Origin: a virus
IMG/VR virus record: IMGVR_UViG_3300028024_000192
Span: 1 to 30,340 of that record
Strand: one strand, 5' to 3'
DNA length: 30,340 bases
Each line of letters opens with the position of its first letter. The first letter of the stretch is position 1. Under the pieces are notes generated by a model. It saw only the letters and a list, made by a program, of their open reading frames with translations. It did not search any database and had not been told where the DNA came from. Below are positions 3,728 to 27,256 of this stretch, one piece after another. The translations under genes were made by a program, and so were the position numbers.

Positions 3728-3736
3728 ATGTCCGCC

Positions 3737-4702: not shown

Positions 4703-4703
4703 A

Positions 4704-7499: not shown

Positions 7500-7795
7500 T
7501 TGTTGCCTACCCGGCCCTGGTACACGCGAAACGGAGCGTTCTGCGGGTCATTCAGAAAGTCGGCCTGAACCTGCGGATCGCGCATGAAGTCACGCCACAA
7601 TACGCCCTTACGGTTGCACCAGTCTTCGCAGATCCACGCGTCCACATGGGCGAGAACCTTGATGTCCTCATCACCTGTCTAGCCGGCCTCACGCTGCTCA
7701 CGGCAGGCGTCGGCGAGCTGCTTGATCTGGCTCGTCTGCACGATGGCATAGTCAACCATCGTCTTGTTATCGACTGCTACGAGTTGGCGTTCCAT
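7496..7795 (-). CDS. Small structural-region protein, amber-recoded (1 TAG)
   Basis: A 99-codon frame from ATG 7793-7795 to TGA 7496-7498, with a GGAGAG ribosome binding site 6 bases before the ATG. TAG at 7679-7681 is residue 39 (EQREAG-TAG-TGDEDIK). The N-terminus MERQLVAVDNKTMVDYAIVQ and an acidic/aromatic C-terminal half (DWCNRKGVLWRDFMRDP) do not match a family I can name. It lies between coat protein and adaptor; a head-completion or decoration role is possible but not shown. Confidence 0.6.
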
Positions 7796-7812
7796 GTGTC
7801 TCTCCGTAAAGT

Positions 7813-7836
7813 GGGGAGAGGCCGAAGCCTCTCCCC
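7813..7836 (-). promoter_or_regulatory. Strong UUCG hairpin after the coat gene
   Basis: Perfect 10-bp stem (GGGGAGAGGC paired with GCCTCTCCCC) closed by a TTCG tetraloop on the transcript strand, 19 bases after the coat protein stop and 18 bases before the next start. There is no T-run after it, so it is unlikely to be a simple terminator. It may protect or process the coat mRNA or lower downstream expression. Confidence 0.6.
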
Positions 7837-7854
7837 GTTGCTAAGCTGACCGTA

Positions 7855-8853
7855 TTAGTTACCGGTCGCCGTCAGATCACGCACCGCGGCCAGGGTCGAT
7901 TCCTGGCGAACCACGAGCGTGACTTCCGTACGGATCTGCCAGTTCTTGGCATCACCGGTCGTCGCAAGCTGTTCGGATTCGAACGGACGGAGCTGACCTA
8001 GGGCCAGCTTGTCGAAGTCGACCAGGTAAGCCGTGTTGATGAGGCCCGCCGAGCCCGCACCCATGACGCGGTTCGGGACAACCTTGCTGACACCGAAGTC
8101 GTGACCATAGAACGTGAACGCGGTCTGGACGATGACGTCATTCGGGTTGAGCGACTTGGAGACACCGCCCTACATGGCGACCTCGTTGGTACGCTGGACA
8201 GCCGCACCGAAGGTGGAGAACTTCGCCTTGTGGGCCGGGCTGACCAAGAACACCGCCGCGTCGCCACCGTTGCTGTACGCACCGAGGATGACGGCCTTGG
8301 CCGAGGCTTCCACGAACGGACGCAGCGTACCCAGGGTCGGGGCCGTGTTCGTCTGCGGGTTGGGAGCCACGCCACCGACGCCGAAGTCGTTGTTGGTCGC
8401 TACGAAGCCGTACAGGCCACGCATCTGACCAGCGACACCGGAAGTTCCGGTCACCGAAGCACCGTTGCCGATGGCGGCAGCCTCGATATCGCGCTTGAGT
8501 TCGACCATTTTCTTGGTCTTCAGGCGGGCGATTTCCGAGCTACGACCGTACTTGCGAACCGCCTCAGCCGTATTAGACACCGAAAGCGTGTCCTGAATGA
8601 TCTGGGTGCGGTTGTTGTACTGACCCGGCTGGGCCTACGCGGCGTAGGTCGCATCCGCACCTTCGATGGAGGCATTGGAGGCGTTCGGCGAGCGGTACGT
8701 GTCGGCAGTCCACTCGTCGAACACGTTCTCGACCTTGATACGGTCGATAGCCGAGGTCAGCGGGGAGTCCGAAGGACGGAAGTTGTAGATCTTGTCCTCG
8801 ACGTCTTCCGCAACGCGGATGACACTCGGGGTGATAAGGGTATTTGCGGGCAT
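7855..8853 (-). CDS. Major capsid protein (SU10-like, DUF5309 family), amber-recoded (2 TAG)
   Basis: A 332-codon frame from ATG 8851-8853 (AGGA site upstream) to TAA 7855-7857. TAG at 8635-8637 and 8170-8172 (residues 73, 228): contexts ATYAA-TAG-AQPGQYNN and NEVAM-TAG-GGVSKS. Family features: an N-terminal MPANTLITP arm, NVFDEWTADTYR, NNRTQIIQDTLSVSNTAEAV, then KTKKMVELKRDIEAAAIGN, matching the DUF5309 / SU10 coat fold in order and length. The scaffold gene lies directly upstream. Two ambers in the most abundant virion protein mean suppression must be efficient late in infection. Confidence 0.85.
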
Positions 8854-8870
8854 TTCAGTTTCCTAAGAGG

Positions 8871-9890
8871 TTAGATGCCGCGCTCAAGGGCGAAACCGGC
8901 CAGCGCATCCAGGGAATTAGGATTGCGTCGGTAGTTGTCGGCTGCCTTCATAGCGCCAGCGGATTTCTCGGGCTTTCCAGCCGTGCCAGGTTTGACGGGT
9001 TTTGCCGGGATCGCCGGGGGTTTCGTCACTTCCGTGGCTTTGGCCTTCGCAGCCTGTGCTTTGTCCCAGAGAGCCGCCTTGCGGGCGACGATCAGGGCAC
9101 GTGGGTCAATCAGTTCTTTAAGCTCGTCATGGGTGTAACCCGCGTCTACGAGCGCATTGGCGATATCCGTCGATTCCGCCTTACGCTTGCCGGGGTCTTT
9201 CCATTCGGGGAGGCGATCCAGCAACGTTTCCTCCGCCAGTCGAAGCGATTCGGCGCGGGCTTTCGCCTGCTCGTTGATCGCGTACTCCTGCGTGGCCTGT
9301 CGGTGGGCCTCAATCTGCCCAAGAAGGGCCTGTCGCTGTGCCATCTGCTCTTTGACACGCAGATAGCCGTGCGGGTCCGTCTCAAGCAATCCTGCAAGCT
9401 TCGCCTGATCACCAACGTACTCCTGATAAAGCGCTGCCCCGAGCACATTTAGCGAGTTGACTCGACTTTCGAGTTCCTGCTTGACCTGTGCCCGCTCAGC
9501 CTGCGCCGCTCGGGTTAGTTCCGCTGCCTCTTGCGTCTTGCGTGTGTAGTCCTGCTGCCGCTGGTAGCCATTGATGGCCTCTTCGAGGGTGATTTCGTGC
9601 TCTTCACCCTGGATGCTCACCTTGACCTTCTTGGCCTTCCAGCTTTCGTCCTCGTTGGTCTTGTCGGTGTCCTTTGCTGAATCGTCTGTGGCCTCGTCAG
9701 CGGCTTTCTGCACTTCTTCCGTGTCTGCGTCCGTATCTTCGTGGCCCTCCTGGCTCTGATCGCCTTCTGCGCCCTCCTAGGCGGCCTCGTCCTTCTCGCT
9801 CTCGTCCATCATTCCAGCGATATCAAGCAGGCTGTGCTCCGTTTCCGGTTGGCCGCCCTCGTGTGTAAGCTCCGTTTCCGGTTGGCTCAT
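8871..9890 (-). CDS. Capsid scaffolding protein, amber-recoded (1 TAG)
   Basis: A 339-codon frame from ATG 9888-9890 (GAGG site upstream) to TAA 8871-8873; TAG at 9777-9779 is residue 38 (SEKDEAA-TAG-EGAEGDQ). The composition is typical of a scaffold: a strongly acidic, disordered N-terminus, then long charged helices (EHEITLEEAINGYQRQQDYT, LLDRLPEWKDPGKRKAES), and a basic Pro/Lys-rich C-terminal tail near residues 280-310 that could contact the coat protein. It directly precedes the major capsid gene. A 16-base direct repeat at 9837-9852 and 9870-9885 encodes a duplicated QPETE at the N-terminus. Confidence 0.8.
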
Positions 9891-9905
9891 GGGGTAAATC
9901 CTCAG

Positions 9906-10226
9906 TTACTTGGTGACGGTCTGCCCATCGCTCAGGCGGACCTTGAATGTGCCACGCACAACAGGTGCGGAGCCGTAGATGCCGATAAAATAGTCGGGTC
10001 CGTCGCAGGGGATAGACACGGCCGTCAGGGAGCGAGGCTTGTATCTGTCCTCAATCGCGTTCAGAAGCCCGTAGCACTCTTTCCAATTCGATGGGCTATC
10101 GTCGCCCTGGCAAGCTTCCCGCTCTCCATCACGGATGCCAGGTGCTGTTCCAGACGATCCAGAATCTTGCTCGACAACCACAACTTTTCGCGGCCTTCCG
10201 CGTCTCTTGCCGGTGAGTTGCGCCAT
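9906..10226 (-). CDS. Small protein overlapping its upstream neighbour
   Basis: A 106-codon frame ending in TAA 9906-9908. If it opens at ATG 10224-10226 (GGAG about 12 bases upstream) it overlaps the 3' part of the preceding gene by 166 bases in another frame. The N-terminus holds an AT-hook-like RRGRPRK; the C-terminal half (SLTAVSIPCDG, YFIGIYGSAPVVRGTFKVRL) is beta-rich and looks genuinely coding. The first half may instead be an accidental frame, with the true start nearer 10064, where only a CTG is available at the upstream stop. No amber. Function not recognised. Confidence 0.5.
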   Translation of the reverse strand: MAQLTGKRRGRPRKVVVVEQDSGSSGTAPGIRDGEREACQGDDSPSNWKECYGLLNAIEDRYKPRSLTAVSIPCDGPDYFIGIYGSAPVVRGTFKVRLSDGQTVTK

Positions 10227-10333
10227 TGGGTTTCAATCTCCGAGCGTACGGTGTCGAATGCCTCGCGATAGAGAGCATCCTCAAGGATGGCTTTCGCCTG
10301 GTGGCCTCGCTGGTCTTCTTTCTCAGGCGTCAT
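10061..10333 (-). CDS. Conserved podophage protein downstream of portal
   Basis: A 90-codon frame from ATG 10331-10333 to TGA 10061-10063, with a textbook AGGAGG 9 bases before the ATG that decides the start. It overlaps the end of the portal gene by 11 bases. The sequence (RGHQAKAILEDALYREAF, ETQWRNSPARDAEGREKLWL, then two further helices) is an all-helical small protein often seen beside portal and scaffold genes in this type of phage. No amber. Molecular role unknown. Confidence 0.75.
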   Translation of the reverse strand: MTPEKEDQRGHQAKAILEDALYREAFDTVRSEIETQWRNSPARDAEGREKLWLSSKILDRLEQHLASVMESGKLARATIAHRIGKSATGF

Positions 10334-12572
10334 TTTCGTGTGCCTCCTGATAGTCCGCATCAGCCGACGCCGTGCTGGCGTCCTTCGCGCCCATAGCTTT
10401 AGCTGCGAGGATCTTCGCCTCGGCGTTGATGCGAGCGACTTCGATGGCGGTCTGGTGAGCCAGTTGGGCCTTAGCCATCGCGAGCTGGTACTCAAGGCTG
10501 GCCTTCTCTCTTGCAAGGGTCATGTCGCTTTCTGACTGAAGCTGATTGCGCTGGGCCTCAAGCTGCGTCTCCTGCTGAGACTGCTGAGCCTGATACGCCT
10601 GCTTCATGCGCTCGACTTCCACATCGCCCTGCTGCTTCTGAGCCTGCAACTGGCCCTGCTGCTGCAACTCGGCCTGCTTGATCTGAGCGTTGGCCTGGAT
10701 AGCGGCCATCTTGTGGGCATTCGGGTCAGGCGCTTGCGGAGGCGGCTGACTGGGATCGGGGGCTGTGAAGTACCGGCTGACGTCGGTCTTGCCGAGGGCT
10801 GCGGTGAGGTCTTCCAGCGTGTTATAGGCGTTCTGCGGGACAGTGAGACCGTATTGACCCGCCTGCTGCTGGATCTGCAAGAGCTGCATGGCCTGGGCCA
10901 CCTGCACCTGCTTGGACTGCGTGCCGATGCCGACCGATACCACCATGTCGTAGTTGTTGGCCCACTCGCGGGGATCGACGGCGAGCCACTGGCCGTTTAC
11001 CTTCACCTGTTCCTCGCGATCCTGATATTGCGTGACCATCTTCAGGATGAGGCGATACAGGCGCTTGATGCCGGTCTCGGCGAACACGCGGGCAAGAAGC
11101 TTCTGGCGGGTTGCGGCCTGGTCCATGAGCTGGCTAACGCCTTCGGAACCAATGTTCGACTTCGACAGCTCGTTACCCACTAGGCCCTGACTGAATTCCT
11201 TCACGCCAGTGCGTCCGTCGCGGACGTTCTTGAAGTACTCGATGCCCTGCATGGCCTGGGCGGCGATGGATGGCACCGTGACCTCGCGCATCATTCCGGA
11301 CTGCTTGACCCGAATCGCACCGCCCGGAACCGGGTTGAGAAAGTCGTCTAGGTTGACCTGTCCTTCCACGATCTCGGTGCGCGGCGTGTTGGACAGGTAG
11401 AAGTTGTCCAGCATCTGGCGGTTGATCGCCGTCATGATCCGCTGGAGGTCTTCCACGAGGTCGTAGAACGACATACCGACCAGCTTGTAGGGCATCAGGA
11501 TTGGGGTAAACAGGGCGAACGGGTGATCTTCTACAATCTCATTCTCGAAGACGACCATTCCTGCCTTGACGATGCGCCGGTACTCGGCAATCCCATCCTT
11601 GTCGAAGTCGACCAGCATGTACGCCTCGGTCAACGTCACCTTGCGCTGGCTCTTGTCGGCAGGATGGTCGTCGTAGCTGTTCACGCCATCGTAGTCGCCG
11701 CGTACGGACGCCTCAGAGGAGGAATTCGCACGTTTGTCCTCGTACATGGACTCAACCTTTTCCTCGTCGTAGCCCATGCTCAACAGGTCGGACTTGGTGC
11801 GCTCCACGTCGTGGCCGATATAACGGACCTTCTCGATGTCCCGCGAGTCCTTGGAAATGGTGATTTCCTCGGGAGGCACACCACAGACGACGAACTTGTC
11901 CTTGCGCTGCTTGACACGAACCGTGACGTCATAGGTAGGCGGAGCGGGCTGAAACTGACCCGGTGCCACCTCTACGGGCTGAGCGTCCGCCTATGGGGCG
12001 CTGGCTGCGACTGAGACGACCTCCATCGAGTCATCGCCCTTGATCGCCTCAAGGTCCATGTCCGACTGGTTGGTCAGCTTCTACTCGCGGACATCCCACG
12101 AGCGATCACAGTAAGCCTTGACGACGCCCATACGGGTAATCAGAGACGACTTGATGGCGTCGTGCAGGATGGTGAACCCAGGGTTCTTGCGATGCAGGAC
12201 GTAGCCGCAATACCGCGTGGCGTCCTTGCAGTTCTTTTCCTCGGACGGACCTGAAGGCTCAAAGGCCACGACATCGTCTGTGGAGGCGAACATTTCCATG
12301 AGACCAGGCATCGTCCACTCGACGACGTCCATTAGCTCCTTGGAAACGACACGACTGCGACCCTCTACCTCGGGCGGGGCAAGCTCACCTACGGCCTCGC
12401 CCTGGTAGTAGGACATCGCACGCTCGCGGTCCGTCTACATCTTGTCATTGAAGCCGATGCCGTTCGTGCGCTCACGGTCGATCAGGGCGCACAGCTCACC
12501 ATCCGACATCGAGCCGCCAGTGGCTTCGTCGTCCGTGTCACCCAGGATTTCGTCGTACGGGTCAGTTTTCAA
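10323..12572 (-). CDS. Portal protein, amber-recoded (3 TAG)
   Basis: A 749-codon frame from TTG 12570-12572 (TTGA overlap with the terminase stop, which picks this start) to TGA 10323-10325. TAG at 12435-12437, 12081-12083 and 11991-11993 (residues 46, 164, 194). Contexts: NDKM-TAG-TDRERAMSYYQGE, WDVRE-TAG-KLTNQSD, SAAP-TAG-ADAQPVE in outline. Family features are RERAMSYYQGE near the start, MEMFASTDDVVAFEP, the clip/wing region, KDGIAEYRRIVKAG, PILMPYKLVGMSFYDLVEDL and a very long Gln-rich C-terminal coiled coil (about residues 600-735), probably the barrel. It follows the large terminase, as in most podophages. Confidence 0.85.
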
Positions 12573-13825
12573 GCGGTGCCCATTTTCTTGTAGGTGAGTT
12601 TCGTCTTGTCCCAGCTATCGTTAGAAAGCTGCGGGGCGACAACATGCATGTATCGGAAGGCGTCGGCACCGTGGCTGTACTGGTCGTGCAACGGAGCGCC
12701 AGGCTCGCCCGTCGATAGCGGCAGGGAGCGCCTGTAACGCTTCAGGCACTCGACCAGCGGGCCAGTCTTCGCCTTGTCGAAGTAAACCTGTGCAAACTGC
12801 CTGCGAGCGAGACGGATGCCTTCCTCGACGCCCAGCTTCGGGACAATGATCACGTCCCAACCAAGCTCCTGCATGATCTCCTGCGAGGACTTTCCGGTCT
12901 TGAAGTCCCGGTTCTCGCCATCGTGGGGGAGGCATACCTTGCCCCAGTTGTACGGACGGGTTTTGAGTTCCGTCGAGTACCAGTCCAGAGTCTTGTGGTT
13001 ACCCTCGATGTACTCGATAGCCCTAAGCTGGCTTAGATGCTTCTACACGAGAATAAGCGTCATCTGGTCGTTCCAGCCAAGGTCGAATACCACATGGACC
13101 TTCAGGGCTGGATCGTAGGGAACTTCGCAGATGCGGCTAGGTGCAGCTTCCCTGGCGCTTGCTATCTCGTCAGCGTAGATCGCACCGGAGACGGCAGGCA
13201 GGCAGATGCCTTCCCATGTGTGGTCGTACTCTGCCTTGGTCAGCATTTCCTTGTCGCGAAGCCGCTCGGCCTCAAGGATGCCGTTGAACCACGGATTGTC
13301 TGAGTAGTTCATCTTCACGACAAACGAGTCTTCGGGAGCATTCTCCACGAAGCGTACGAAGGTCGGGTCAGTGTCCAACTCCGGGTTGAACGTAATCCAG
13401 ACTTCGGAGCCGTCCTTGCGGATGGTCGGTATCAGGATCTTCCAACTCCGCTCCGTGATGGCCTGCGCTTCCTCGCACCAGACGATGTCAACGCCCTCGT
13501 AGGACTTCACGGACTCGGCGGTCTATTCGCTCAGTCCGGCAAAGGTGATCTCCGTGCCGTTGATGCCCTTGATGACCGTTGCCTGGACCTCGTAGAACGC
13601 ACCCAGACCCATTGAGGCTATCTGGTCGCCCAGGAGCTTGTGTACCGAGTCCTTGATGGACTTCTGGATCTCTCGGGTACAGAGGATACGCAATGGCCTC
13701 TGAGCGCCCTGCAGGAGCAGCGCGCGGGCGTAACCCCAAGACTTGCCGGAGCCTCGCCCGCCGTATGCCACCTTGTAGCGTGCTGGCTTGAAAAGTCCCT
13801 CTAGCTTGTCAGGGAACTCGATCAT
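12569..13825 (-). CDS. terL: Terminase large subunit, amber-recoded (2 TAG)
   Basis: A 418-codon frame from ATG 13823-13825 to TGA 12569-12571. Walker A GGRGSGKS at residues 22-29, Walker B DIVWCEEA at about 113-120, and the nuclease-domain DLGWND before residue 255. TAG at 13523-13525 (residue 101) gives AGLSE-Q-TAESVKS; TAG at 13043-13045 (residue 261) gives MTLILV-Q-KHLSQLR. In phage terminases of this family both sites usually carry Gln (GLxxQTAxSIKS and the Gln after the ILV/FFF strand), so they are strong evidence for TAG=Gln. The enzyme packages DNA into the prohead with the small subunit encoded just upstream. Confidence 0.9.
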
Positions 13826-14078
13826 GCTCAGCCTTGACGAACGAGATAGTCAGCCCCGCCACCAGCGGATTATCCGGGTCGCCTGATACCTGAGTGGGAA
13901 GAACCTTCCCGAGAAGCGTCATAAAGGCGCTAGGCGACGACTCAGCCTGCTTCACCAGATAGTCGACGCCACCCTTCTTGTCCAACGCCTCAAGGATCAT
14001 TTCCTTGAGCGTCGCGGTCGTCTTGTTCGGGACACCCTTCTGGCGTCCACCAGTTTTGGGTGCACCTTTACCAGCCAC
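13809..14078 (-). CDS. Terminase small subunit-like protein
   Basis: An 89-codon frame from GTG 14076-14078 (GAGGTG 11 bases upstream) to TGA 13809-13811, overlapping the terL start by 17 bases. The N-terminus ([18 protein letters not shown]) is the basic, Gly-rich leader typical of phage small terminase/DNA-packaging proteins, followed by a helical segment ending in [20 protein letters not shown]. Position directly before terL supports the role. No in-frame amber. Confidence 0.72.
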
Positions 14079-14117
14079 GTCTGTTCACCTCTAGTTTAGA
14101 CTTCCGAACCAACTGAC

Positions 14118-14363
14118 TTAGACATTGGGTTCAATCGTCGGCCACCAATCCTCTGTGACCTATTCGCCAGTGTCGGCGTTGATGTAAATGGCGGCGGCTG
14201 TTGGATTCGAACCAACGTTGGCAGCGGTTAAGCTGCTGGATGGTTTAGAGCCATCCCCCTTCGGCCCCTCGGGCAAACCGCTCTTGAAAATGCGCTCCCA
14301 GTTATCTGAGAACGTCTGTTCGTCCACGCTCAGAGGACGACGGTCATCGCCCTTTCCGCTCAT
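14118..14363 (-). CDS. Small phage protein with an embedded suppressor tRNA, amber-recoded (1 TAG)
   Basis: An 81-codon frame from ATG 14361-14363 (ATGA overlap) to TAA 14118-14120. The first 28 residues (SGKGDDRRPLSVDEQTF, then NWERIF) look like a small protein common near phage terminases. Residues about 28-58 are simply the translation of the tRNA at 14189-14282, which keeps the frame open. After it come IYINADTGE, a TAG at 14160-14162 (residue 68), and VTEDWWPTIEPNV, which looks coding. So the gene appears to have received a tRNA in frame, or the tRNA has been kept in frame. Cutting out the tRNA would destroy the message. Whether protein is made is unknown. Confidence 0.6.
14189..14282 (-). 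tRNA. Amber suppressor tRNA, anticodon CTA, long variable arm
   Basis: Seen on the minus strand: acceptor AGCGGTT pairing with AGCCGCC (A1-C72 mismatch, T6-G67 wobble), discriminator G73 and encoded CCA. The D-stem is CCC/GGG, the anticodon stem GATGG/CCATC with loop CTCTAAA (anticodon CTA, T33, A37). The variable arm is long, GCAGC/GCTGC, and the T-arm is GTTGG-TTCGAAT-CCAAC. All arms pair well, so I judge it functional. The anticodon reads UAG. The body is class II (Ser/Leu type). G73, G2-C71 and an open 1-72 pair are known glutaminyl-tRNA synthetase preferences. It lies in the late operon between spanins and terminase, so it would be made with the genes that need it. Confidence 0.9.
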
Positions 14364-14527
14364 GCAGTCGCGAAGTTGGCGTTGAGGTAATACGCCAGCG
14401 CAGCCCAGGTTTCGAAGGCCACGGATTCGCTAGCAGCGCTTGCCGGCGACTGGACGATGGCGTAACCGTTAAACGTCTTCACGATGGTGATGGCTGATCC
14501 TGCCAGCCAGGTAGGAATGCCGGTCAT
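14360..14527 (-). CDS. Small hypothetical protein (55 aa)
   Basis: Frame from ATG 14525-14527 to TGA 14360-14362, linked by ATGA-type overlaps at both ends. The sequence (MTGIPTWLAGSAITIVKTFN, then YAIVQSPASAA, FETWAALAYYLNANF) is hydrophobic and aromatic but without a clear transmembrane helix. It fills a space that would otherwise be an odd gap in a compact operon. Function unknown; perhaps a small structural or lysis-associated protein. Confidence 0.6.
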   Translation of the reverse strand: MTGIPTWLAGSAITIVKTFNGYAIVQSPASAASESVAFETWAALAYYLNANFATA

Positions 14528-14766
14528 CAGCTACGCACCTTGGCGATTTCCTGGCGAAGCCAGTCCACGAGGTTGTGGGCAGAGGCGCCCAGTTCCTCTA
14601 CGGCCTTCTCGACGCGCTGGAAGAAGGATTCGTCGGCGACACTGGCCGAGGCGTCCGGAACTTGGGCAAAGACGGGATCAGGCGCCACGATGGGTGTGGG
14701 CTCGGGGGCAACTTCAGCAGCCACTACAGACTCGGTTACTTCAGGCTGTACGGTTTCGTCGGTCAT
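14527..14766 (-). CDS. Hypothetical acidic protein with C-terminal amphipathic helix
   Basis: A 79-codon frame from ATG 14764-14766 (ATGA overlap with the o-spanin stop decides this start) to TGA 14527-14529. The N-terminal half is Glu/Val/Pro/Ala-rich and disordered; the C-terminal part (FFQRVEKAVEELGASAHNL, then DWLRQEIAKVR) forms an amphipathic helix. No family recognised. It sits between the spanin pair and the packaging genes. Confidence 0.65.
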   Translation of the reverse strand: MTDETVQPEVTESVVAAEVAPEPTPIVAPDPVFAQVPDASASVADESFFQRVEKAVEELGASAHNLVDWLRQEIAKVRS

Positions 14767-14999
14767 TTGGATTCCTCGGGTTTGTATTTGACCCAGCCGC
14801 AGATAACCTTTCCGGTCTCGTCGTGGGTCAGGATTTGCTTGGCTGTGCCGTCCGTCAGCACATCGTCTTTTGACACGTAGATGGGCTTGGCCCAGTCGCA
14901 TCCGTCAGTCTGGACGGGACCAGTCGCGCAGCAACTCAGCACTGGCAGAGTCAGAAGGAGCAGTAGCGACAGGAACCGTTGGTGCATCTGGAAGCGCAT
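14763..14999 (-). CDS. o-spanin, Rz1-like outer-membrane lipoprotein
   Basis: A 78-codon frame to TGA 14763-14765, starting inside the i-spanin gene in another frame. The N-terminus is a signal peptide with a lipobox (LLTLPVLSC, then a second Cys), and the mature part contains CDWAKPIYVSKDDVL, TAKQILTHDETG and VICGW, a pattern I know from Rz1-like lipoproteins of proteobacterial phages. With the i-spanin it would fuse inner and outer membranes at the last step of lysis. No amber. Confidence 0.82.
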   Translation of the reverse strand: MRFQMHQRFLSLLLLLTLPVLSCCATGPVQTDGCDWAKPIYVSKDDVLTDGTAKQILTHDETGKVICGWVKYKPEESK

Positions 15000-15165
15000 T
15001 GACCTGACCCTCTACGGTGCTTCTAACCTTCTTGTGCTTCTTGATGACCTTCTCGACCTTCTGAGCCTGCGCCTGTCGCTCGCTGGTGGCTCCGTGGTAG
15101 TCAGCCCATAGCAGACTGGCTCCCCACAGAAGAACGATGCCTAGGGCTATGTAGACGTATCTCAC
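14905..15165 (-). CDS. i-spanin, Rz-like
   Basis: An 86-codon frame from GTG 15163-15165 (AAGGAG upstream) to TGA 14905-14907. N-terminal membrane anchor (YIALGIVLLWGASLLW), then a charged coiled coil (RQAQAQKVEKVIKKHKKV) and a Pro/Ala-rich tail. The o-spanin gene starts within it in another frame, the classic overlapping Rz/Rz1 arrangement. It acts in the inner membrane and periplasm at lysis. No amber. Confidence 0.8.
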   Translation of the reverse strand: MRYVYIALGIVLLWGASLLWADYHGATSERQAQAQKVEKVIKKHKKVRSTVEGQVNALPDAPTVPVATAPSDSASAELLRDWSRPD

Positions 15166-15174
15166 GAGGTCTCC

Positions 15175-15264
15175 TTAGTCATCACCAGATCCGAAGTAGG
15201 CACGACCTACAACGATGACCACCGACAGCACCAGCCCAAACGCAATAAGGTCAATGAATGGCAT
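15175..15264 (-). CDS. Tiny single-span membrane protein (29 aa)
   Basis: Frame from ATG 15262-15264 to TAA 15175-15177: a short N-terminus, one hydrophobic helix (FIDLIAFGLVLSVVIVVGRA) and a charged tail. It overlaps the end of the protease gene by 14 bases and lies in the lysis cassette, so it could be a lysis modulator. Its ribosome binding site is weak, so I am only moderately sure it is translated. Confidence 0.45.
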   Translation of the reverse strand: MPFIDLIAFGLVLSVVIVVGRAYFGSGDD

Positions 15265-15868
15265 AGCCGACATCCCGATATTGCTCAGCCGTGAAGACGA
15301 TGGGGATAGACCCCATAAGCTTGAACTGGGTGTCCTGGTAGTTAATGACGATGGCGTAACTCGTCACTGCCACTACCTGACCATCCTCGCCGAAAACCCC
15401 CGATCCACTGTCCCCATAGAACCCGTTGACATCGTAGATCGTCGTCACCTTGCCTTCCTTCTCGTCGTGCCCGGCCACATGGCCTTCGCGGTACATGAAG
15501 TTCAGGAAGGCTGGCTGACCCCAAAGAAACACTACGTCGCCAGGTTTGGCCTCCTTGCCGATATGGGACCACGAGGTGAACGTGGTATCCACGACCAGCA
15601 TCGTGTGGTCGTTGCCGTCGTCGATCTGCTTCTAGACCTTCGCGGCCCTGTCGTTTACCTTCAGGGACTTCATGCCAACGAAGCAATGAGTCGCTGAGAG
15701 AATAAGGTGTGGGCCAATGGCCGTACCGCTACACACCCCATTTCCGTCCATTTCCAGCCGCAAGGCCGTAGCCCTGGTTCGACTCAGCAAATCTTCTCGC
15801 GGAGAATGCGTTGCGCACCCTACCGCAGCCAAGACAAGGACGAGGTAGAACGCGATTCGCAATTTCAT
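15251..15868 (-). CDS. Trypsin-like serine protease lipoprotein, amber-recoded (1 TAG)
   Basis: A 205-codon frame from ATG 15866-15868 to TGA 15251-15253, with TAG at 15632-15634 (residue 79, AAKV-TAG-KQIDDGNDH). The N-terminus is a lipoprotein signal (LVLAAVGC, Cys18). The catalytic triad of the chymotrypsin/trypsin fold is visible: His61 in LSATHC, Asp87 in DGNDH, Ser154 in YGDSGSG. The amber lies between His and Asp, so unsuppressed translation cannot give active enzyme. It sits between the holin and the spanins. The substrate is unknown; an envelope role in lysis or exclusion is inference. Confidence 0.82.
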
Positions 15869-16069
15869 TTACTGCCTCAAACCGGAGGTGTCCGGCGGCT
15901 TCTTTGCTACGGCTGACTCTGCGACATCTGCGGAGCAGTACAGCCCGAGTACCCAGGTGACCGTGCTCGACCACTGGGCGGAATCAATGAGGTGGAAGAT
16001 CAGCAGGCCAGTTGCGGTAATGAACGCAGCGCAGGCCAGCTAGAACTTGGATTGAAGGAAGCCGCTCAT
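15869..16069 (-). CDS. Holin-like protein, amber-recoded (1 TAG)
   Basis: A 66-codon frame from ATG 16067-16069 (ATGA with the endolysin stop) to TAA 15869-15871, which directly abuts the next ATG. TAG at 16040-16042 is residue 10 (MSGFLQSKF-TAG-LACAAF). Two hydrophobic segments follow (LACAAFITATGLLIFHLI and VTWVLGLYCSADVA) and a charged tail, a holin-like layout, next to the endolysin. The amber at residue 10 would block almost all protein until UAG is decoded. Confidence 0.75.
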
Positions 16070-16542
16070 GGCTTGAGACACAACTGGGTTTCGGCCTCTC
16101 GGCGTCGGGTGAGTCCGTTTACCACCTAGCCACCTGCCCTATTCCACCTGCGTAACTGGGTACACCACACACTGGGCGGGTAGCCCTCATTGGCAAGACG
16201 CTGCAAGGTTGAGGCACATGCGACATCGGGGCCGAGATTGAACACCGCCGATGTCAGGGCCGCAGCCTAATTAACCGTCAGTGGAACCTAGATGCACTGG
16301 AGTACGTATCCCGCAGCTACCTACAAGTCCCTCTTGAACCACTTTTCGCACTGGTAGTTGTCGTAGTGCTTGCCCAGTACCACCTCCGGCCCCGTATGCC
16401 CCGTGCAGGCAGTCGTAACCCCTACAACGTCCGAGTAGCCCTCGTAGACCGTACCCTCCCATGGCTGGGTGAAGGCTGCGGCTGCGGCAACGACTGCCGC
16501 CAGAAATCCGCCAACGATCTTAGAGCTTGGGCGAAATGACAC
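16066..16542 (-). CDS. SAR endolysin, phage lysozyme (GH24), amber-recoded (4 TAG)
   Basis: A 158-codon frame from GTG 16540-16542 (GGAG upstream) to TGA 16066-16068. The N-terminus is a weak hydrophobic Ala-rich segment (VGGFLAAVVAAAAAF), the signal-anchor-release type. Catalytic Glu29 (WEG), Asp38 and Thr44 have the GH24 spacing E-8-D-5-T. TAG at 16321-16323, 16288-16290, 16267-16269 and 16126-16128 (residues 74, 85, 92, 139). Read as Gln they give FKRDLQVAAGYVLQCI, QVPLTVNQAAAL and RAGGQVVNGLTRRREAE, restoring the family's conserved VPLTxxQ and AGGxVVxGLxRRR motifs. The catalytic Glu/Asp/Thr lie before the first amber, the rest of the fold after it. Confidence 0.9.
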
Positions 16543-16744: not shown

Positions 16745-17251
16745 TTAGACGGCGATGGTCCGCACTGGACCGCCCGTATACACGTCGAGTTTCGACGCAA
16801 TCTTGACTGCCTGGGCAGCGGTGGAACCGGCCAGCATGGCACCCATGGCGAATTCCTCACCCGACCCAATAGCGTATGGTCCCTTGAACTTCATCGGGAT
16901 CATCGAGGTTGAATCTAGCCTGTAACTAACCTTGGGGCCGACCAGAAGGCCATAAGCGGACGTGTCGTCGCTCGTATCGGCCTCTAGTGACTCCAGCGAC
17001 CCCGTCTCGATCTGGCAGAGCATTTTCATGACCAGGGAGAGCTTCCCCGCTCCGCCAAATACCCACCCACTAAATGGTCCAGTTCCGACGCGATGGATCT
17101 TCACCACATCGAACCGCTTGAACGAGGCCGTACTCTGGCTGTCTGCCGCCACAACTCCATCTTTCACGGCTATGGTCGTAATGACAGCGATCCTCGGTAA
17201 AATTCTGTTGGCGAAAATGCAGATTTGTGAAATTTCGTGGATATCTATCAT
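16745..17251 (-). CDS. Proteasome-like (Ntn-hydrolase, HslV-type) protein
   Basis: A 168-codon frame from ATG 17249-17251 to TAA 16745-16747. From residue 24 the sequence ITTIAVKDGVVAADSQST matches the start of proteasome-beta/HslV-like proteins, where Thr after the initiator Met is the nucleophile; GLLVGPKVSYRLDS, PYAIGSGEEFAMGAM and AAQAVKIASKLDVYTGGPV follow, as in this family. The preceding 23 residues look unlike the family. An ATT codon at 17180-17182 with GAGG 9 bases before it would start the protein exactly at the expected position (145 aa). No amber. A role in virion maturation or host-protein turnover is possible; not shown. Confidence 0.75.
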   Translation of the reverse strand: MIDIHEISQICIFANRILPRIAVITTIAVKDGVVAADSQSTASFKRFDVVKIHRVGTGPFSGWVFGGAGKLSLVMKMLCQIETGSLESLEADTSDDTSAYGLLVGPKVSYRLDSTSMIPMKFKGPYAIGSGEEFAMGAMLAGSTAAQAVKIASKLDVYTGGPVRTIAV

Positions 17252-17254
17252 TTT

Positions 17255-17281
17255 TGATACTTTAAGTAGCTTAAGGTATCA
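17255..17281. promoter_or_regulatory. 27-bp dyad in the gap before the late block
   Basis: TGATAC-TTTAAG-TAG-CTTAAG-GTATCA: a 12-bp inverted repeat with one G-T pair and a 3-base centre, in an AT-rich island between the phosphoesterase and the protease gene. As RNA it pairs better on the plus strand, where TTTT follows. On the minus strand a plausible promoter (TTAAGC, 17 bases, ATGATA) overlaps it. It could be a late promoter with an operator, or a terminator against plus-strand transcription. I cannot decide. Confidence 0.4.
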
Positions 17282-17307
17282 TTTTAGATAGATCGACTTG
17301 GGCCGGA

Positions 17308-18132
17308 TTACGCCACGCGTGCCAGCGAAAACCTGCTCTCAGCATTCTTGTACTGGCGCTTGAGGTACGAGGCCAAGGAGCGGTTCTCATACTTACGGCA
17401 AAGGTAGTCGAGGGTCAGCGGCATTTCGCAGAACGTGCCGTCGCGAACCTCGTTCAGTACCACGATTCCTCGCCAGTGCGAATTAGCCATGCCTTTGTAG
17501 GGCTCGTCGTGGAGGTAGCAGCTACCAGCGACGATGCCGTGGCGCATCTGGCCTGTGGCGTACTGCACAGAGCCCTGCTGAAGACCCTGGACGTGGCCCT
17601 GCACGAATGTCGTGCCGATCTTGGCTAGCCGGTTGCTGATCGTTCCGCTGATCGGCTTGCCTGTATTCGGATTGGCGAAATAGTGGGCGTAGGTGACGCC
17701 ATCGATCACTACCGCGCCGGGCGATCCATGGACGTAGTCGATGACCTCCCAACCTAATTTTCGGTCTACGAACTGATGCGAGCCAACGGCACCAGCCCAC
17801 TTGGGGCTTGCTGAGATAGCTCGCTCAAGCCTCCATTCGTGATTCCCGCGAAGGATAACCTTGCGACCCTTGTAACCAGCCATGGCCTCGTGAAGACGAA
17901 TCAGGGCCTCGTTACCTGCGTCGAGGTCGTCCTGATACCGAAGTCCCTCAAGGTCGAGCGATCCCGGCGAACTCCACGAGGACAGGCTTTCGAAGTCCCA
18001 ATGGTCGCCGAGGTGGACAACCACATCAGGCTTGTAGTCCTGAATCGCTCGACCTACCCACTCAAGGTGGTCAGTCGGGGCGCCCGGCTTGATTTGGGTA
18101 TCTGGAAGAATAAGGTGTCGACGGGGCTTCAT
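17308..18132 (-). CDS. Calcineurin-like metallophosphoesterase
   Basis: A 274-codon frame from ATG 18130-18132 (GGAGG upstream; ATGA overlap decides this start over a longer frame) to TAA 17308-17310. Metal-binding motifs in order: PDTQIKPG (Asp11), VVHLGDHWD (Asp43), LRGNHEWRLER, and a late GHVQG, the standard calcineurin-fold set. Phages use such enzymes on nucleotides, RNA ends or phosphoproteins; the substrate here is unknown. No amber. It follows the DUF5664 gene and is probably co-expressed with early or middle genes. Confidence 0.85.
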   Translation of the reverse strand: MKPRRHLILPDTQIKPGAPTDHLEWVGRAIQDYKPDVVVHLGDHWDFESLSSWSSPGSLDLEGLRYQDDLDAGNEALIRLHEAMAGYKGRKVILRGNHEWRLERAISASPKWAGAVGSHQFVDRKLGWEVIDYVHGSPGAVVIDGVTYAHYFANPNTGKPISGTISNRLAKIGTTFVQGHVQGLQQGSVQYATGQMRHGIVAGSCYLHDEPYKGMANSHWRGIVVLNEVRDGTFCEMPLTLDYLCRKYENRSLASYLKRQYKNAESRFSLARVA

Positions 18133-18569
18133 CAGTCCTCCCGATCCGCCAAAGGCATGGAGTAACCAGCCACTGGCGTGTGGTCGTGCTCGGCCTTTAG
18201 TACCTCGTGAAGCATCCCCGACGCGTTGAACAGGACGGCGCAAAGGTTCTCGACCAAGCCGTCCGGCGTCTCTATACCCTTGCTCTCTTCCCACACGGCG
18301 AAGAAATGCCGCCAGAGGGACTTCATGTAGACATCGCGGGCAATGCCCAGGGTCCAGTTGTCCGAGGCCCTTAGAGAGCCATCTGGGAGCTTCCGGTGGG
18401 CGTGCATATAGTCGGCGTACTGGCGAAGAACGAGCGGGCTCAGAAATCCATCAAAGTCCAGCTTCCCAGCGTCCGTATCGCGAGTCGCACCTGTTGAGAA
18501 CTGGCGAATCTCCGCCTCAGTACCGACCAATCGGCTACTGCCATCCTGATTGAAAGTCGCACGAATCAT
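18132..18569 (-). CDS. DUF5664-type protein (dATP/dGTP diphosphohydrolase N-terminal-like)
   Basis: A 145-codon frame from ATG 18567-18569 (GGGGG upstream) to TGA 18132-18134. Characteristic words are RQFSTGATRDTDAGKLDFDG, FLSPLVLRQYADYMHAHR, NWTLGIARDVYMKSLWRHFF and a final helix (NLCAVLFNASGMLHEVL). This family occurs in many phages and is related by name to nucleotide diphosphohydrolases, but the catalytic C-terminal domain is not fused here. No adenylosuccinate synthase-like gene for modified purines is seen in the window. No amber. Confidence 0.75.
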   Translation of the reverse strand: MIRATFNQDGSSRLVGTEAEIRQFSTGATRDTDAGKLDFDGFLSPLVLRQYADYMHAHRKLPDGSLRASDNWTLGIARDVYMKSLWRHFFAVWEESKGIETPDGLVENLCAVLFNASGMLHEVLKAEHDHTPVAGYSMPLADRED

Positions 18570-18666
18570 ATGACCCCCGATAGGTCGGTTTTAGGGTGCC
18601 GGTGCCCTGTATCGGGCAGGGCGGGCTATACGCCTCGACCGGCATAAATGGCGGAAGGTTAAGGAG
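18570..18666 (-). other. Intergenic spacer holding a tRNA-Ser 3' end fragment
   Basis: 97 bases with no gene. It holds a 6-bp hairpin (18604-18622) and, at 18651-18667, a 17-base copy of the tRNA-Ser 3' end found at 19066-19082. Here the copy is followed by an intact CCA (18649-18651), which the complete tRNA lacks. Confidence 0.7.
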
Positions 18667-18667
18667 T
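18651..18667 (-). repeat. Direct repeat of tRNA-Ser 3' end, copy 1
   Basis: GCGGAAGGTTAAGGAGT on the plus strand, identical to 19066-19082. It contains the 3' acceptor strand, G73 and part of the T-stem of tRNA-Ser. The pair encloses the HNH endonuclease gene, and the copy overlaps the first base of that gene's stop codon. Confidence 0.8.
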
Positions 18668-19035
18668 TACCTTCCCGTACGAAGATAGTGTTCGCGACGC
18701 TTCTGTGGAGTCCAATGTCGAGATTTTGACGCCTTATCCCTTAGAACCCTCTGCTCATGGGTGAACTGCTTAGCTCTACCCTTTCCACCGGCGCTGTAGT
18801 TGCATGATTGATGGCTAAACGCGATGTTATTTAGATCGAAAAACAGATCCACCGCATTGCCTGAATCTATCCAGGGCCGGATATGCTCCACGCTGAAAGA
18901 TTCTCTTGTAAGCTCACCACCACAGCGATAACACAGGTGCCCAGCCGACTTAATGAAAGCAAAAAGCAAGTCCGATCTGAGCCTGTTAGCCGCTGTGCTT
19001 ACATTCATGCCCAACTGTAGCGAACGCTTATCCAT
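18667..19035 (-). CDS. HNH endonuclease (homing type)
   Basis: A 122-codon frame from ATG 19033-19035 (GGGGG site 6 bases upstream decides this start) to TAA 18667-18669. Zinc/HNH pattern: Cys35 and Cys38 (CYRCGG), VEHIRPW (His51), LNNIAF (Asn70), then HQSC (Cys78). It is a free-standing HNH nuclease lying immediately downstream of tRNA-Ser and flanked by 17-base direct repeats of that tRNA's 3' end, which marks it as a likely mobile insertion. No amber. Confidence 0.85.
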   Translation of the reverse strand: MDKRSLQLGMNVSTAANRLRSDLLFAFIKSAGHLCYRCGGELTRESFSVEHIRPWIDSGNAVDLFFDLNNIAFSHQSCNYSAGGKGRAKQFTHEQRVLRDKASKSRHWTPQKRREHYLRTGR

Positions 19036-19065
19036 GACTGCCCCCAAGGCGTCTACAGATGAAAT

Positions 19066-19082
19066 GCGGAAGGTTAAGGAGT
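19066..19082 (-). repeat. Direct repeat of tRNA-Ser 3' end, copy 2
   Basis: Same 17 bases as 18651-18667, here forming the 3' end of the complete tRNA-Ser gene. The base context after it reads GCA instead of GCCA on the minus strand, so the encoded CCA is broken at this copy. Confidence 0.8.
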
Positions 19083-19150
19083 CGAACCCTTACGGTTTCC
19101 CGCAGCACGGTTTTCAAGACCGCTCGCCGGCCAACCCAGCGCAACCTTCC
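19067..19150 (-). tRNA. tRNA-Ser, anticodon TGA
   Basis: Minus strand: acceptor GGAAGGT/ACCTTCC with G73, D-stem CGC/GCG, anticodon stem GCGGT/ACCGT with loop CTTGAAA (anticodon TGA, reads UCA). The variable arm is TGCGG-GAAA-CCGTA, typical of tRNA-Ser. The T-arm has one mismatch at 49-65. CCA is not encoded. The 3' end is duplicated beyond the HNH gene. It decodes an ordinary Ser codon and is not a suppressor. Confidence 0.88.
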
Positions 19151-19199
19151 TAAGTGGTGCGGCACGACCGGGAACTCCCAATCCAGATGCCGGGTAAAT

Positions 19200-19278
19200 T
19201 GGAGCGGGTCAGGAGAATCGAACTCCGCGTTCTTCAGCTTGGAAGGCTGCTGCGCGCCCTTTGCGCTTGTTAACCCGC
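19200..19278 (-). tRNA. tRNA-Gly-like, anticodon TCC, atypical D-arm
   Basis: Minus strand: acceptor GCGGGTT/GACCCGC with T73 and encoded CCA, anticodon loop CTTCCAA (TCC), T-loop TTCGATT. Weak points are the 27-43 and 49-65 mismatches and an irregular D-arm, where the only good stem is GCGC/GCGC five bases after the acceptor stem. It may be functional with a strained structure or be decaying. Its 5' end directly abuts the 16-bp stem of the neighbouring structured RNA. Confidence 0.65.
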
Positions 19279-19615
19279 ATAGGTTTGCTGTCAGTCGTGG
19301 CCGTTAAGCCACTAGCGGGTGGTGTGAGGCCCGCATCAGATCCACAGCATGAGATCTACAGCAATGAAAGTTTTCAGGTGTTCGCCGGCCTGAGCACCGG
19401 AAGCATCTGACAGCAAACCTATACAGGTCACGGTTACCGTTATCCGTGTCGTCCCGCCAGACGAGGCCCTGCCCTTGCGGCAGTAATCCCGGCCTCTTTC
19501 TGGCTGTGCGGCGACTACCGTTCGATGAACGGGCCCGCAGAGGCTTAGCCGGGAATCTCAGGCGTTTAATCCGCCCTCGTGTGGATTTGACCATGCGAAA
19601 ATTCGATGGTCACAG
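19279..19615 (-). ncRNA. Candidate large structured RNA next to tRNAs
   Basis: 337 bases without a credible gene, dense in perfect stems when read on the minus strand. A 16-bp stem (19407-19422 with 19279-19294) encloses hairpins AGATC/GGATCT, GCGGG/CCCGC and GTGGC/GCCAC. Upstream lie TCCCGGC/GCCGGGA closing CCGTTC-ATC-GAACGG, then CTGCC-GCAA-GGGCAG (GNRA-type loop), TCGTC/GACGA and GACCAT/ATGGTC. The location between a possible late regulator gene and tRNA genes resembles that of large ornate phage RNAs (GOLLD, ROOL), but I do not see sequence identity to them. Function unknown. Confidence 0.6.
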
Positions 19616-19888
19616 TCAGGGCGTTGATTGAAACTCGTCTACGATGTGTAGCTGAAAGCCTCCCCATCCCTCACTCAAGTTGTATTTCCCTGGGTCCTCG
19701 CTGGCCAATAGGGCCAGAAGAGCCTCCGGCTCGCCGTAATTGAATTCTGGATAGGGGTGGCTGTAGCCTGGTACTTTCTCACCTACGTAACTGCGCAGCA
19801 TGTCCATGACAGCGTCCCGATTAGTTGTAGCCTTAACGTCCTCAGCGCCATACTCGTCATAGTTGCTTAGAATGTAGATCCGGCTCAT
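19616..19888 (-). CDS. Hypothetical acidic protein
   Basis: A 90-codon frame from ATG 19886-19888 (ATGA overlap) to TGA 19616-19618. It starts with a beta strand (MSRIYILSNYDEYG), then a helix (RDAVMDMLRSYVG) and an acidic, Tyr/Pro-rich C-terminal half ending in WGGFQLHIVDEF. No family recognised. It is the last gene of the early leftward operon before the RNA zone. Confidence 0.68.
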   Translation of the reverse strand: MSRIYILSNYDEYGAEDVKATTNRDAVMDMLRSYVGEKVPGYSHPYPEFNYGEPEALLALLASEDPGKYNLSEGWGGFQLHIVDEFQSTP

Positions 19889-20376
19889 GCGACAGCCCTC
19901 GTTGCTCGCAGTACGTGGTGGTACTGGTAGTGAAGCTCGACGGTGTAGTTCTTTAGGCCCTCTGACATCATCGTGGTCAGTTCGCCTCGGATCTTCAGGT
20001 AGGTGGCGTGGTGGATGCCAAGGCGGCGTTCAACCTCGCGGGCAAACTCAGCGTGGCGACCGAAGACGATGAACTCCAGGGCATCCACGCCGGCTTGCGA
20101 AACCCAATCGTTCCTACGCCCCCTAGGAGCCACTACAGCCTGTCCGTTAGTCTTCCGGGTACGAGTGTGCTGCCTAGCCATGCCGATAGCCCACGAGGCT
20201 AGCTGGCGGTCGTATACGGTGTCGCCACGAACCACTCGGCTGTAGAGTTGCCAGCCGGGGTAATGGGGATCAAACAACTTCGCCGTCCGGTTCGCCGCAT
20301 CAATGCAAGCGTCCGAAAGTTCAGGCATCGCGAATGCCTCGTCCGTATCGCGGCCAATGATGTCGTGGGTGGTCAT
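19885..20376 (-). CDS. Possible Q-like late regulator (uncertain)
   Basis: A 163-codon frame from ATG 20374-20376 (ATGA) to TGA 19885-19887. The C-terminal part (ALEFIVFGRHAEFAREVERR, LGIHHATYLKIRGELTTM) reads like a helix-turn-helix: a helix, LGIHHATY as turn and recognition helix. Its place at the far end of the replication/nin-like genes, before tRNAs and the lysis cassette, is where lambda-like phages carry antiterminator Q. Sequence similarity to a named Q family is not clear to me, so the role is inference from position and a possible HTH. No amber. Confidence 0.55.
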   Translation of the reverse strand: MTTHDIIGRDTDEAFAMPELSDACIDAANRTAKLFDPHYPGWQLYSRVVRGDTVYDRQLASWAIGMARQHTRTRKTNGQAVVAPRGRRNDWVSQAGVDALEFIVFGRHAEFAREVERRLGIHHATYLKIRGELTTMMSEGLKNYTVELHYQYHHVLRATRAVA

Positions 20377-20741
20377 TTAGCCACCTTCGGTACGCTGACC
20401 TTTGGCAACGTGACCGGTTCGCCCCAGGTCTGGAAATACTTCGCTCCGATCTTTACAAAATCGACCTTATTCACCGGCTGACCACCCGATGCTGCATGGG
20501 CCTGCTCGCATGTGTGGAAGTATTTAGGCGGACCGGGGACTTTCTTTTTATATGCCGTGTTACCCAGGCTGAAGATTCCATCCCTTAGCTTCGGTGGTAT
20601 ATAGTCCGGGTTGTCGATTTCTGGGTAGGTCCTATAGAGACTAGTGAGTGATGCCTTTCCAACTACCTCGACGATCTTCTCAACCTCGACGATCTTATCA
20701 ACGATTTTCTCAACCTCTACAACCCTCGTAAAAAAACTCAC
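20373..20741 (-). CDS. Hypothetical protein with N-terminal Val/Glu/Lys repeat
   Basis: A 122-codon frame from GTG 20739-20741 (GTGA overlap decides this start) to TGA 20373-20375. Residues about 8-25 repeat the pattern VEVEKIV three times, encoded by near-identical DNA repeats at 20660-20720, and probably form a coiled coil for oligomerisation. The rest (YPEIDNPDYIPPKLRDGIF, YKKKVPGPPKYFHTCEQA) is polar and unrecognised. No amber. Confidence 0.65.
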   Translation of the reverse strand: MSFFTRVVEVEKIVDKIVEVEKIVEVVGKASLTSLYRTYPEIDNPDYIPPKLRDGIFSLGNTAYKKKVPGPPKYFHTCEQAHAASGGQPVNKVDFVKIGAKYFQTWGEPVTLPKVSVPKVAK

Positions 20742-21136
20742 GCCGCCTCCTTCATCTTCGTGTAGTTGATGGCTTTCTGAATCGACGCCCACGCACATTC
20801 TGGGTCGATGCCTAAATGCCACAGGATGTTTCTCTTCTCGCCGCTTGGCAGTTCGATCATGCCGTGGATAGCCGTATCGCCAGCGGGGATATCCGCAGCA
20901 TCGTATTGCCTGCCACTTAGGCCAATGCCGAAGTAGTCATAGACGGCCCGCGAGTAGATCGCCCACAGGAATTCGTGTTCCTTCGTCCGCCACTCGGATG
21001 ACAGGTGCGGAGCTGGTCGCATCGTGACAACGCCGTGGTTCACATGCATATCCTGCTTCCGCTCGTGGGCCGGTGAGGTCGACGCGATGTGATACAGGTC
21101 AATCCGGAGTGTCTTGCATAGCTGGCGGCTGTTCAT
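20738..21136 (-). CDS. Hypothetical early protein
   Basis: A 132-codon frame from ATG 21134-21136 (ATGA) to TGA 20738-20740. It contains EWRTKEHEFLWAIYSRAVYD and IHGMIELPSGEKRNILWHL; the C-terminus is helical and ends in KMKEAA. I do not recognise the family. It lies in the nin-like region between a nuclease-like gene and the coiled-coil protein. No amber. Confidence 0.65.
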   Translation of the reverse strand: MNSRQLCKTLRIDLYHIASTSPAHERKQDMHVNHGVVTMRPAPHLSSEWRTKEHEFLWAIYSRAVYDYFGIGLSGRQYDAADIPAGDTAIHGMIELPSGEKRNILWHLGIDPECAWASIQKAINYTKMKEAA

Positions 21137-22430: not shown

Positions 22431-22433
22431 GAC

Positions 22434-25015: not shown

Positions 25016-25092
25016 GCTTCATTCGCTCTTGGCGTTACGTTGACGTTCGGCGTGGTTCGATTACGGACGCTAGGAAAAATGCGTGCCGTGGA

Positions 25093-27250: not shown

Positions 27251-27256
27251 CTATCG

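Follow-up and report, generated by a model that had tools for sequence, protein, structure and literature searches.

The window analysed here, a 30,340-nucleotide stretch of viral DNA (IMG/VR virus record IMGVR_UViG_3300028024_000192), carries on its minus strand, from position 1 to 16542, a block of structural and lysis genes in which TAG is used as a sense codon. This block contains 33 in-frame TAG codons, and all of its genes end in TAA or TGA. Tail genes are among the minus-strand late genes. No in-frame TAG was found in the genes from 16745 to the right end of the window. The features are the following:

1-1923, 1920-3338, 3338-3727, 3737-4702 and 4704-5207, minus strand: further late (structural) genes with in-frame TAG, first part
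5141-5446, 5443-6900, 6897-7499 and 7496-7795, minus strand: further late (structural) genes with in-frame TAG, second part
7855-8853, minus strand: major head protein, two in-frame TAG (PHROG, E 7e-72)
8871-9890, minus strand: head scaffolding protein, one in-frame TAG (PHROG, E 1.6e-46)
10323-12572, minus strand: portal protein, three in-frame TAG (PHROG portal, E 3e-146)
12569-13825, minus strand: terminase large subunit (terL), two in-frame TAG (PHROG, E 3e-58; the TAG sites are CAG in relatives)
13809-14078, minus strand: small protein directly upstream of terL and downstream of the tRNA, terminase-small-subunit-like by position (position and conservation; putative function)
14118-14363, minus strand: small ORF containing the tRNA in frame (open through the tRNA, with N- and C-terminal landmarks in frame in 11 of 11 genomes)
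14189-14282, minus strand: amber suppressor tRNA gene, anticodon CUA, class II, 94 nt (ARAGORN, Markov null, compensatory changes)
14360-14527, minus strand: small gene upstream of the tRNA-bearing ORF; its TGA and the start ATG of that ORF share bases in an ATGA (from the sequence)
14905-15165, minus strand: Rz-like spanin, no TAG in the window, three in the relative G382 (PHROG, weak, E 0.0019)
15251-15868, minus strand: protease-like protein, one in-frame TAG (PHROG protease, E 1e-10)
16066-16542, minus strand: endolysin, four in-frame TAG (PHROG endolysin, E 2e-45)
16745-25305, minus strand: early-type genes without in-frame TAG (metallophosphoesterase-like, HNH, DnaB-like helicase and others)
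25694-26551, plus strand: CI-like repressor, ending in TAG, which is still a stop here (PHROG transcriptional repressor, E 9e-44)

A few other features of the window were recorded. A second tRNA, Ser-UGA, lies at 19066-19150 (minus strand) and has no encoded CCA. Beside it, at 19206-19275 (minus strand), a gene that resembles tRNA-Gly(UCC) and includes CCA gives a weak score (25.5 bits vs a cut-off of 29), and both calls fall outside the listed minus-strand genes. A weak match to the Trp_leader model at 27175-27282 on the plus strand (29 bits vs a cut-off of 41) is probably just an intrinsic terminator, GAGCCCGCCCAGAGCGGGCTTTTTT. The ORF at 29549-30340 (plus strand) runs off the window and shows many short repeats of the SGYSGAATA type toward its C-terminal side.

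ARAGORN returned a CTA tRNA at exactly 14189-14282 on the minus strand, with the anticodon loop CTCTAAA and an encoded CCA (3' GCCA). The position, loop and CCA described in an earlier reading made from the sequence alone (hereafter the sequence-only reading), which had proposed this program as a check for a Sup-CTA call, were thus recovered. That reading had also described a well-paired cloverleaf, but the molecule is not fully paired: the 7-bp acceptor stem has an A.C mismatch at 1-72, followed by G2-C71 and with G73 as discriminator, and the D stem has only three pairs (10-25, 11-24 and 12-23). The D arm is Ser/Tyr-like, and the variable arm of 22 nt forms a 5-bp hairpin, as in class II tRNAs (Ser, Leu, Tyr and Sec). 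When 300 windows (9.1 Mb) were simulated with a Markov model, ARAGORN made four tRNA calls, about 0.013 per window, and none of them had a CTA anticodon. The folding energy was unremarkable (z = -1.2), and the best Rfam match, tRNA-Sec, was sub-threshold (28.5 bits vs a gathering score of 47), as expected for an odd class II tRNA. Since fold energy and Rfam alone are unconvincing, the case is made by architecture plus comparison, and we conclude that the tRNA is real. Selenocysteine identity was rejected because the anticodon is CUA and not UCA, the 7-bp acceptor stem is not elongated and the score is below the cut-off. A 1-72 mismatch is also a hallmark of initiator tRNA, and this candidate was discarded because the anticodon stem lacks a run of three G-C pairs. 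ARAGORN labels the molecule 'Pyl', a name that reflects the CTA anticodon alone. A pyrrolysine tRNA has a negligible probability here: the TAG sites are glutamine positions (see below), the variable arm is 22 nt long and no pylS-like gene was noticed among the window ORFs, which were inspected without a profile search. Such a long arm is at odds with tRNA-Pyl, in which the variable loop is short.

The strong evidence for the window tRNA is comparative, and consists of covariation. The same 94-nt tRNA is present in the viral contigs L007 and L140, and between them and the window there are five double-sided compensatory pair changes with no stem pair broken. In sequence numbering, these are C-G/A-T at the D pair 12-23, G-C/C-G at 28-44 and A-T/T-A at 29-43 in the anticodon stem, and A-T/G-C at 49-60 and G-C/A-T at 50-59 in the variable arm; the L140 tRNA also has one C-G to T-G change. 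These changes bear on a rival idea, in which the tRNA is decaying or silent and the decoding of TAG falls to the host or to a suppressor gene elsewhere, in the part of the genome that the window lacks. The acceptor mismatch and the modest fold energy would fit such decay, and the window is incomplete: of the 40 kb expected it covers about 30, and the remainder could encode a further suppressor tRNA. Against this, the stems have been maintained by compensation, the CCA is intact, the 1-72 mismatch is common to all suppressors of the group, and the near-complete relatives G002, G003, G004 and G007 have exactly one CTA tRNA, at this same place. We regard a silent tRNA as very improbable.

The distribution of TAG is that of a code used only late. 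In the window, TAG accounts for 33 of the 385 Gln-coding codons of late genes and for none of the 49 of early genes (Fisher p 0.04), and matched genes from 12 contigs, the window included, contained 262 in-frame TAG on the late side vs 6 on the early side. The sequence marks of code 15 are present, namely in-frame TAG in conserved genes with TAA or TGA stops, correspondence of TAG to Gln, a CUA tRNA and late enrichment, and we conclude that the recoding of the late genes is real. The tRNA and the genes with in-frame TAG are all on the minus strand, and in 14 further phage contigs a CTA tRNA occupies the corresponding position, beside the small (terminase-side) ORF. Together with the contrast between 33 late and no early TAG and with the Gln residues at these sites in relatives, this upholds the proposal that the recoded block contains its own amber suppressor as decoding agent. 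Every relative with TAG-rich late genes has the CTA tRNA at this place, whereas G385 and G386, with no TAG in their matched late genes, have none in the stretch examined.

The meaning of TAG was read from relatives, that is, viral contigs found with terL (amino-acid identity 84-91% for L002-L007 and 76% for L081). In relatives with at least 70% amino-acid identity, 40 of the 54 sense residues at window TAG sites are Gln and none is Ser, the others being Asn (6), Thr (3), Tyr (2), Val (1), Glu (1) and Lys (1), and TAG itself occurs 28 times. By likelihood, the margin of Gln is 79 log units over Lys, which ranks second, and 114 over Ser, values that are a ranking and not a probability because columns and relatives are not independent; the calculation used substitution frequencies from the same alignments, with values capped and columns treated as independent. 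The reciprocal analysis gave a Gln majority at 19 of 30 window sites, and Gln headed the count at the sites of each well-covered relative. Few sites could be scored in G006 and G013, the two other genomes with the class II tRNA (Gln in 2/6 and 4/10, respectively), and not every TAG column in the less conserved genes indicates Gln. At five sites (88, 83, 43, 172 and terL 101) TAG is found only in the window and all close relatives have CAG, so that these CAG-to-TAG changes arose in the window phage. On these comparisons, TAG is most likely read as glutamine.

The same counts weigh on a serine reading, in which the class II body and G73 would lead SerRS, which ignores the anticodon, to charge the tRNA, and TAG would mean Ser or a Ser/Gln mixture. 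The long variable arm, G73 and the D loop GAGGGGCCGAA, close to the GAGTGGCCGAA of Pseudomonas tRNA-Ser, are in keeping with it, and tRNA-Ser is among the best alignment matches, along with Gln and Tyr. Yet Ser is absent from all 54 positions in close relatives, the window-only TAGs replace CAG, and the A1.C72 break is foreign to tRNA-Ser and common to all Gln-like class I suppressors at the locus, which leaves serine improbable. As a leading reading, a Ser, Tyr or Leu identity deduced from the class II body was rejected because close relatives have Gln, and in no case Ser, in the TAG columns; Tyr and Leu also because the window tRNA lacks A73.

The acceptor end points to glutamine as well. 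All ten distinct suppressors at this locus have a 1-72 mismatch (A.C, U.C, C.C or C.U), G2-C71 and G73, and those of the relatives comprise 75-nt class I tRNAs of two kinds, a 74-nt Gln-like type and a 71-nt type with a reduced D arm. In Pseudomonas nitroreducens, with 30 distinct tRNAs compared, a 1-72 mismatch is confined to the two tRNA-fMet (C.A), and the tRNA-Gln of this bacterium has the weak pair A1-U72 and G73. The G3-C70 and G10-C25 pairs of E. coli tRNA-Gln, which contribute to Gln identity and do not alone define it, are both replaced by C-G in the window tRNA (C3-G70 and C10-G25). U35, G73, a weak or open 1-72 and G2-C71, features of GlnRS substrates according to PMC9976931 and established knowledge, are all there. 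It has been reported that an amber tRNA-Ser is moved from serine to glutamine by two acceptor-helix pair changes, at 1-72 and 3-70, and that in vivo selection of amber tRNA-Asn suppressors yielded only molecules with a destabilised 1-72 pair, which inserted glutamine (PMC9976931). Like these laboratory molecules, the window tRNA combines CUA on a non-Gln body with a weakened 1-72 and G73; unlike them, it is natural and phage-borne, and its charging with Gln is predicted from the sequence. By analogy, it looks like a natural counterpart of the laboratory conversions. Glutamine is likewise inserted by the classical su+3 mutants of tRNA-Tyr that carry A1 or G73. Host GlnRS would charge the phage tRNA with glutamine despite its Ser/Tyr-like class II body, the cues being U35 from CUA, G73 and G2-C71 from the acceptor end, and the unpaired A1.C72 as an easily opened end. 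The presence of GlnRS in the host of the window phage is assumed from related prophages in Pseudomonas; the enzyme is encoded in the P. nitroreducens genome, and a Pseudomonas lysogen of a related prophage has it. No close cellular parent of the window tRNA was found in plasmids or in the P. nitroreducens genome, and its phage matches were confined to the T-arm.

The diversity of tRNA bodies over one acceptor end goes with signs of exchange at the locus. L002 and L005 are nearly identical on either side of the tRNA, as far as its first base and again from CCA on (LRLEGL[tRNA]HEVTHGNAS), but their tRNAs differ, and L003 and L005 share the tRNA and differ in the downstream flank. Sequence comparison thus indicates that relatives exchange entire tRNA genes as cassettes, and on several occasions other suppressor tRNA genes have taken the place of the tRNA part of the small gene. 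Crossover could have occurred at the shared TGGGG...CCCCCGCCA ends. Three contigs (L140, L155 and L158) carry the module though their terL is only 32-34% identical to that of the window, which indicates that it also moves between phages with different terminases.

The sequence-only reading placed the tRNA between the spanin and terminase genes. It does lie between 14905-15165 and the terminase genes, but it is not intergenic, as it is contained in the ORF at 14118-14363. This ORF starts with MSGKGDDRRPLSVDEQTFSDNWERIF and is laid out as MSGKGDD..NWERIF, the tRNA as codons, and then IYINADTGE(TAG)VTEDWWPTIEPNV. Relatives conserve its N-terminal part, with a mean pN/pS of 0.36, and this part resembles a small phage protein, MGKGS..RP..NWDRIF (G385, L054-L072), which differs in being encoded by a short gene without a tRNA. 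The ATGA overlap with the gene at 14360-14527 suggests translational coupling. In all 11 genomes with recognisable ends (the window, L002, L003, L004, L005, L006, L007, L081, L140, L153 and L155), both ends of the ORF are in the same frame with no TAA or TGA between them. The end-to-end distances take seven different values, all multiples of 3, for which the chance of agreement would be about 1 in 700 or less if they are independent. In 10 of the 11 genomes, the frame used is the sole one open across the tRNA, and in 15 of 15 loci the tail motif follows in frame, directly behind CCA or after a short spacer. L007 and L140 have two tandem tRNAs inside the open frame (CTA + Gln-TTG and CTA + Asn-GTT, respectively).

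Some further observations concern these segments. The second tandem tRNAs, Gln-UUG and Asn-GUU, stand 3 bases behind the class II suppressor (L007:9358-9432 and L140, minus strand, about 2112-2186). About 28 nt around the tail motif (CATCAACGCCGACACTGGCGAATAGGT, window about 14146-14183, minus strand) are identical in five genomes, third codon positions included, and the sequence on either side varies among the five; this could reflect either recent recombination or an extra function of the DNA or RNA. No significant homologues of the ORF tail were found in named phages, and a scan of viral contigs for tRNA-tail junctions, with a pattern that was too strict, gave no match.

The frame through the tRNA might be a by-product, with only the N-terminal part being a gene and the rest open by chance or shared ancestry. 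The segments are short and several relatives share flanks by recombination; moreover, in G385 the N-terminal gene occurs by itself, ending after 54 codons with neither tRNA nor WWP tail, and in L014, L017, L158 and L160 the N-terminal domain is absent while the tail motif stands in frame directly or shortly behind the tRNA. Agreement of frame in 11 of 11 genomes over seven distances, the single crossing frame of three that is always the one used in 10 of 11, and the tail in frame at every locus argue the other way, and we consider a by-product unlikely, if worth keeping in mind. With the tRNA gene nested in frame inside a small late gene, one stretch of transcript could yield either mature tRNA or the small-ORF protein. 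A dual-use gene may be envisaged in which tRNA maturation destroys the message and translation blocks maturation, the whole acting as a gauge that ties tRNA output to late translation, with a TAG behind the tRNA that would itself have to be suppressed for the protein to be completed; we put this forward as a speculative and rather doubtful proposal.

Taken as a whole, the reading that we favour with considerable confidence is that of a working amber suppressor tRNA, charged by GlnRS, by which the late TAG codons are read as Gln and which is nested in a small gene. Before the late phase, early and lysogenic genes would use UAG only as a stop, as the CI-like repressor does with its terminal TAG. 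Late transcription would then run through the tRNA gene, and the tRNA would be cut out of the transcript and, once mature, compete with release factor 1 at UAG, so that full-length tail, capsid, portal, terminase, protease and endolysin would be made as Gln-containing proteins. Production of the tRNA from the late transcript is plausible from its position and strand, and a consensus scan of 13.7-17.4 kb (weak evidence) disclosed no convincing separate promoter for it, nothing being above chance. The positive feedback that the sequence-only reading had also put forward is plausible solely in the weak sense that more late transcript would mean more suppressor. The class II body with its Gln-type acceptor end, the nesting in an ORF and the exchange of tRNA genes between relatives are points that the sequence-only reading did not have.

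The window phage is probably temperate. Its terL relatives occur in Pseudomonas phages and prophages. The recoded relative G382 is a prophage in isolate IMG 2824527706 (L167/L168, IMGVR_UViG_2824527706_000001). This prophage has an integrase-like gene, dozens of in-frame TAG in its late genes, TAG-free early genes and, at the same place, a 71-nt CTA suppressor tRNA, which fits a temperate phage with conditional recoding. In the six recoded phages with a CI-like homologue (the window, G002, G006, G007, G382 and G383) the repressor always ends in TAG, and suppression would lengthen it by 10-95 residues. A repressor switch controlled by suppression is possible, yet not supported: G385, with no TAG in its matched late genes and no suppressor found, also has TAG as its CI stop, conservation is lacking in the read-through tails and the TAG sometimes abuts the ribosome site of the next gene. 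The CI homologue of G386 ends in TGA.

Recoding of late-gene TAG to Gln by phage suppressor tRNAs is already known (PMC9523058, PMC10607447, PMC11210395, PMC10879173). The window resembles the code 15 phages (crAss-like phages, Lak megaphages and phAss-1; PMC9523058, PMC8346664, PMC10607447) in its structural and lysis genes with in-frame TAG for Gln, in its phage-encoded CTA tRNA and in a host assumed to use the standard code. It differs from those of the gut, which are large, in that its group has genomes of about 40 kb, a GC content of 58%, CI and integrase and Pseudomonas-phage relatives, and in that the tRNA is nested in a protein gene and its type is exchanged among close relatives. Phage phAss-1 (OQ749652) has an 88-nt class II Sup-CTA with A1-U72 and G73 (L183:12442-12532, minus strand) and a class I Sup-CTA with U1.C72 and G73, so neither trait is confined to the window group, but its CTA tRNAs are annotated between genes. 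The gut-phage suppressor tRNAs associated with Theta ribozymes, most of them predicted to be Gln, are similar in that their maturation is proposed to be tied to recoded late expression (PMC10879173). In contrast, the 3' end of the window tRNA is an encoded CCA that runs on into ORF codons, and no ribozyme family matched the window at E<=1. The literature searched gave no instance of suppressor tRNAs nested in frame in a protein gene, of their exchange as cassettes or of a class II Gln-type suppressor with a 1-72 mismatch; that literature excluded Borges et al. 2022, reportedly the main paper on lytic-gene (phage stop-codon) recoding, and the search is therefore no proof of absence. With this reading of the literature, the nested gene, the cassette exchange and the class II Gln suppressor are what is new, and phage code 15 with Sup-CTA is what was known.

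If the small ORF is translated, the same sequence, read in the sense direction, would serve both as the gene of a structured tRNA and as coding sequence for part of a protein, and in the literature searched we found no case of a tRNA gene doubling in this way. The locus also bears on the origin and turnover of suppressors, since different tRNA bodies occupy one place with the same Gln-type acceptor end, an end that matches the identity rules obtained from amber suppressors in E. coli. Finally, the range of conditional stop-codon recoding would now include small phages that are apparently temperate and whose hosts are probably Gammaproteobacteria, given their relatives in Pseudomonas, and the presence of G382 in a sequenced isolate may provide a cultured lysogen in which conditional recoding can be tested, instead of gut metagenomes.
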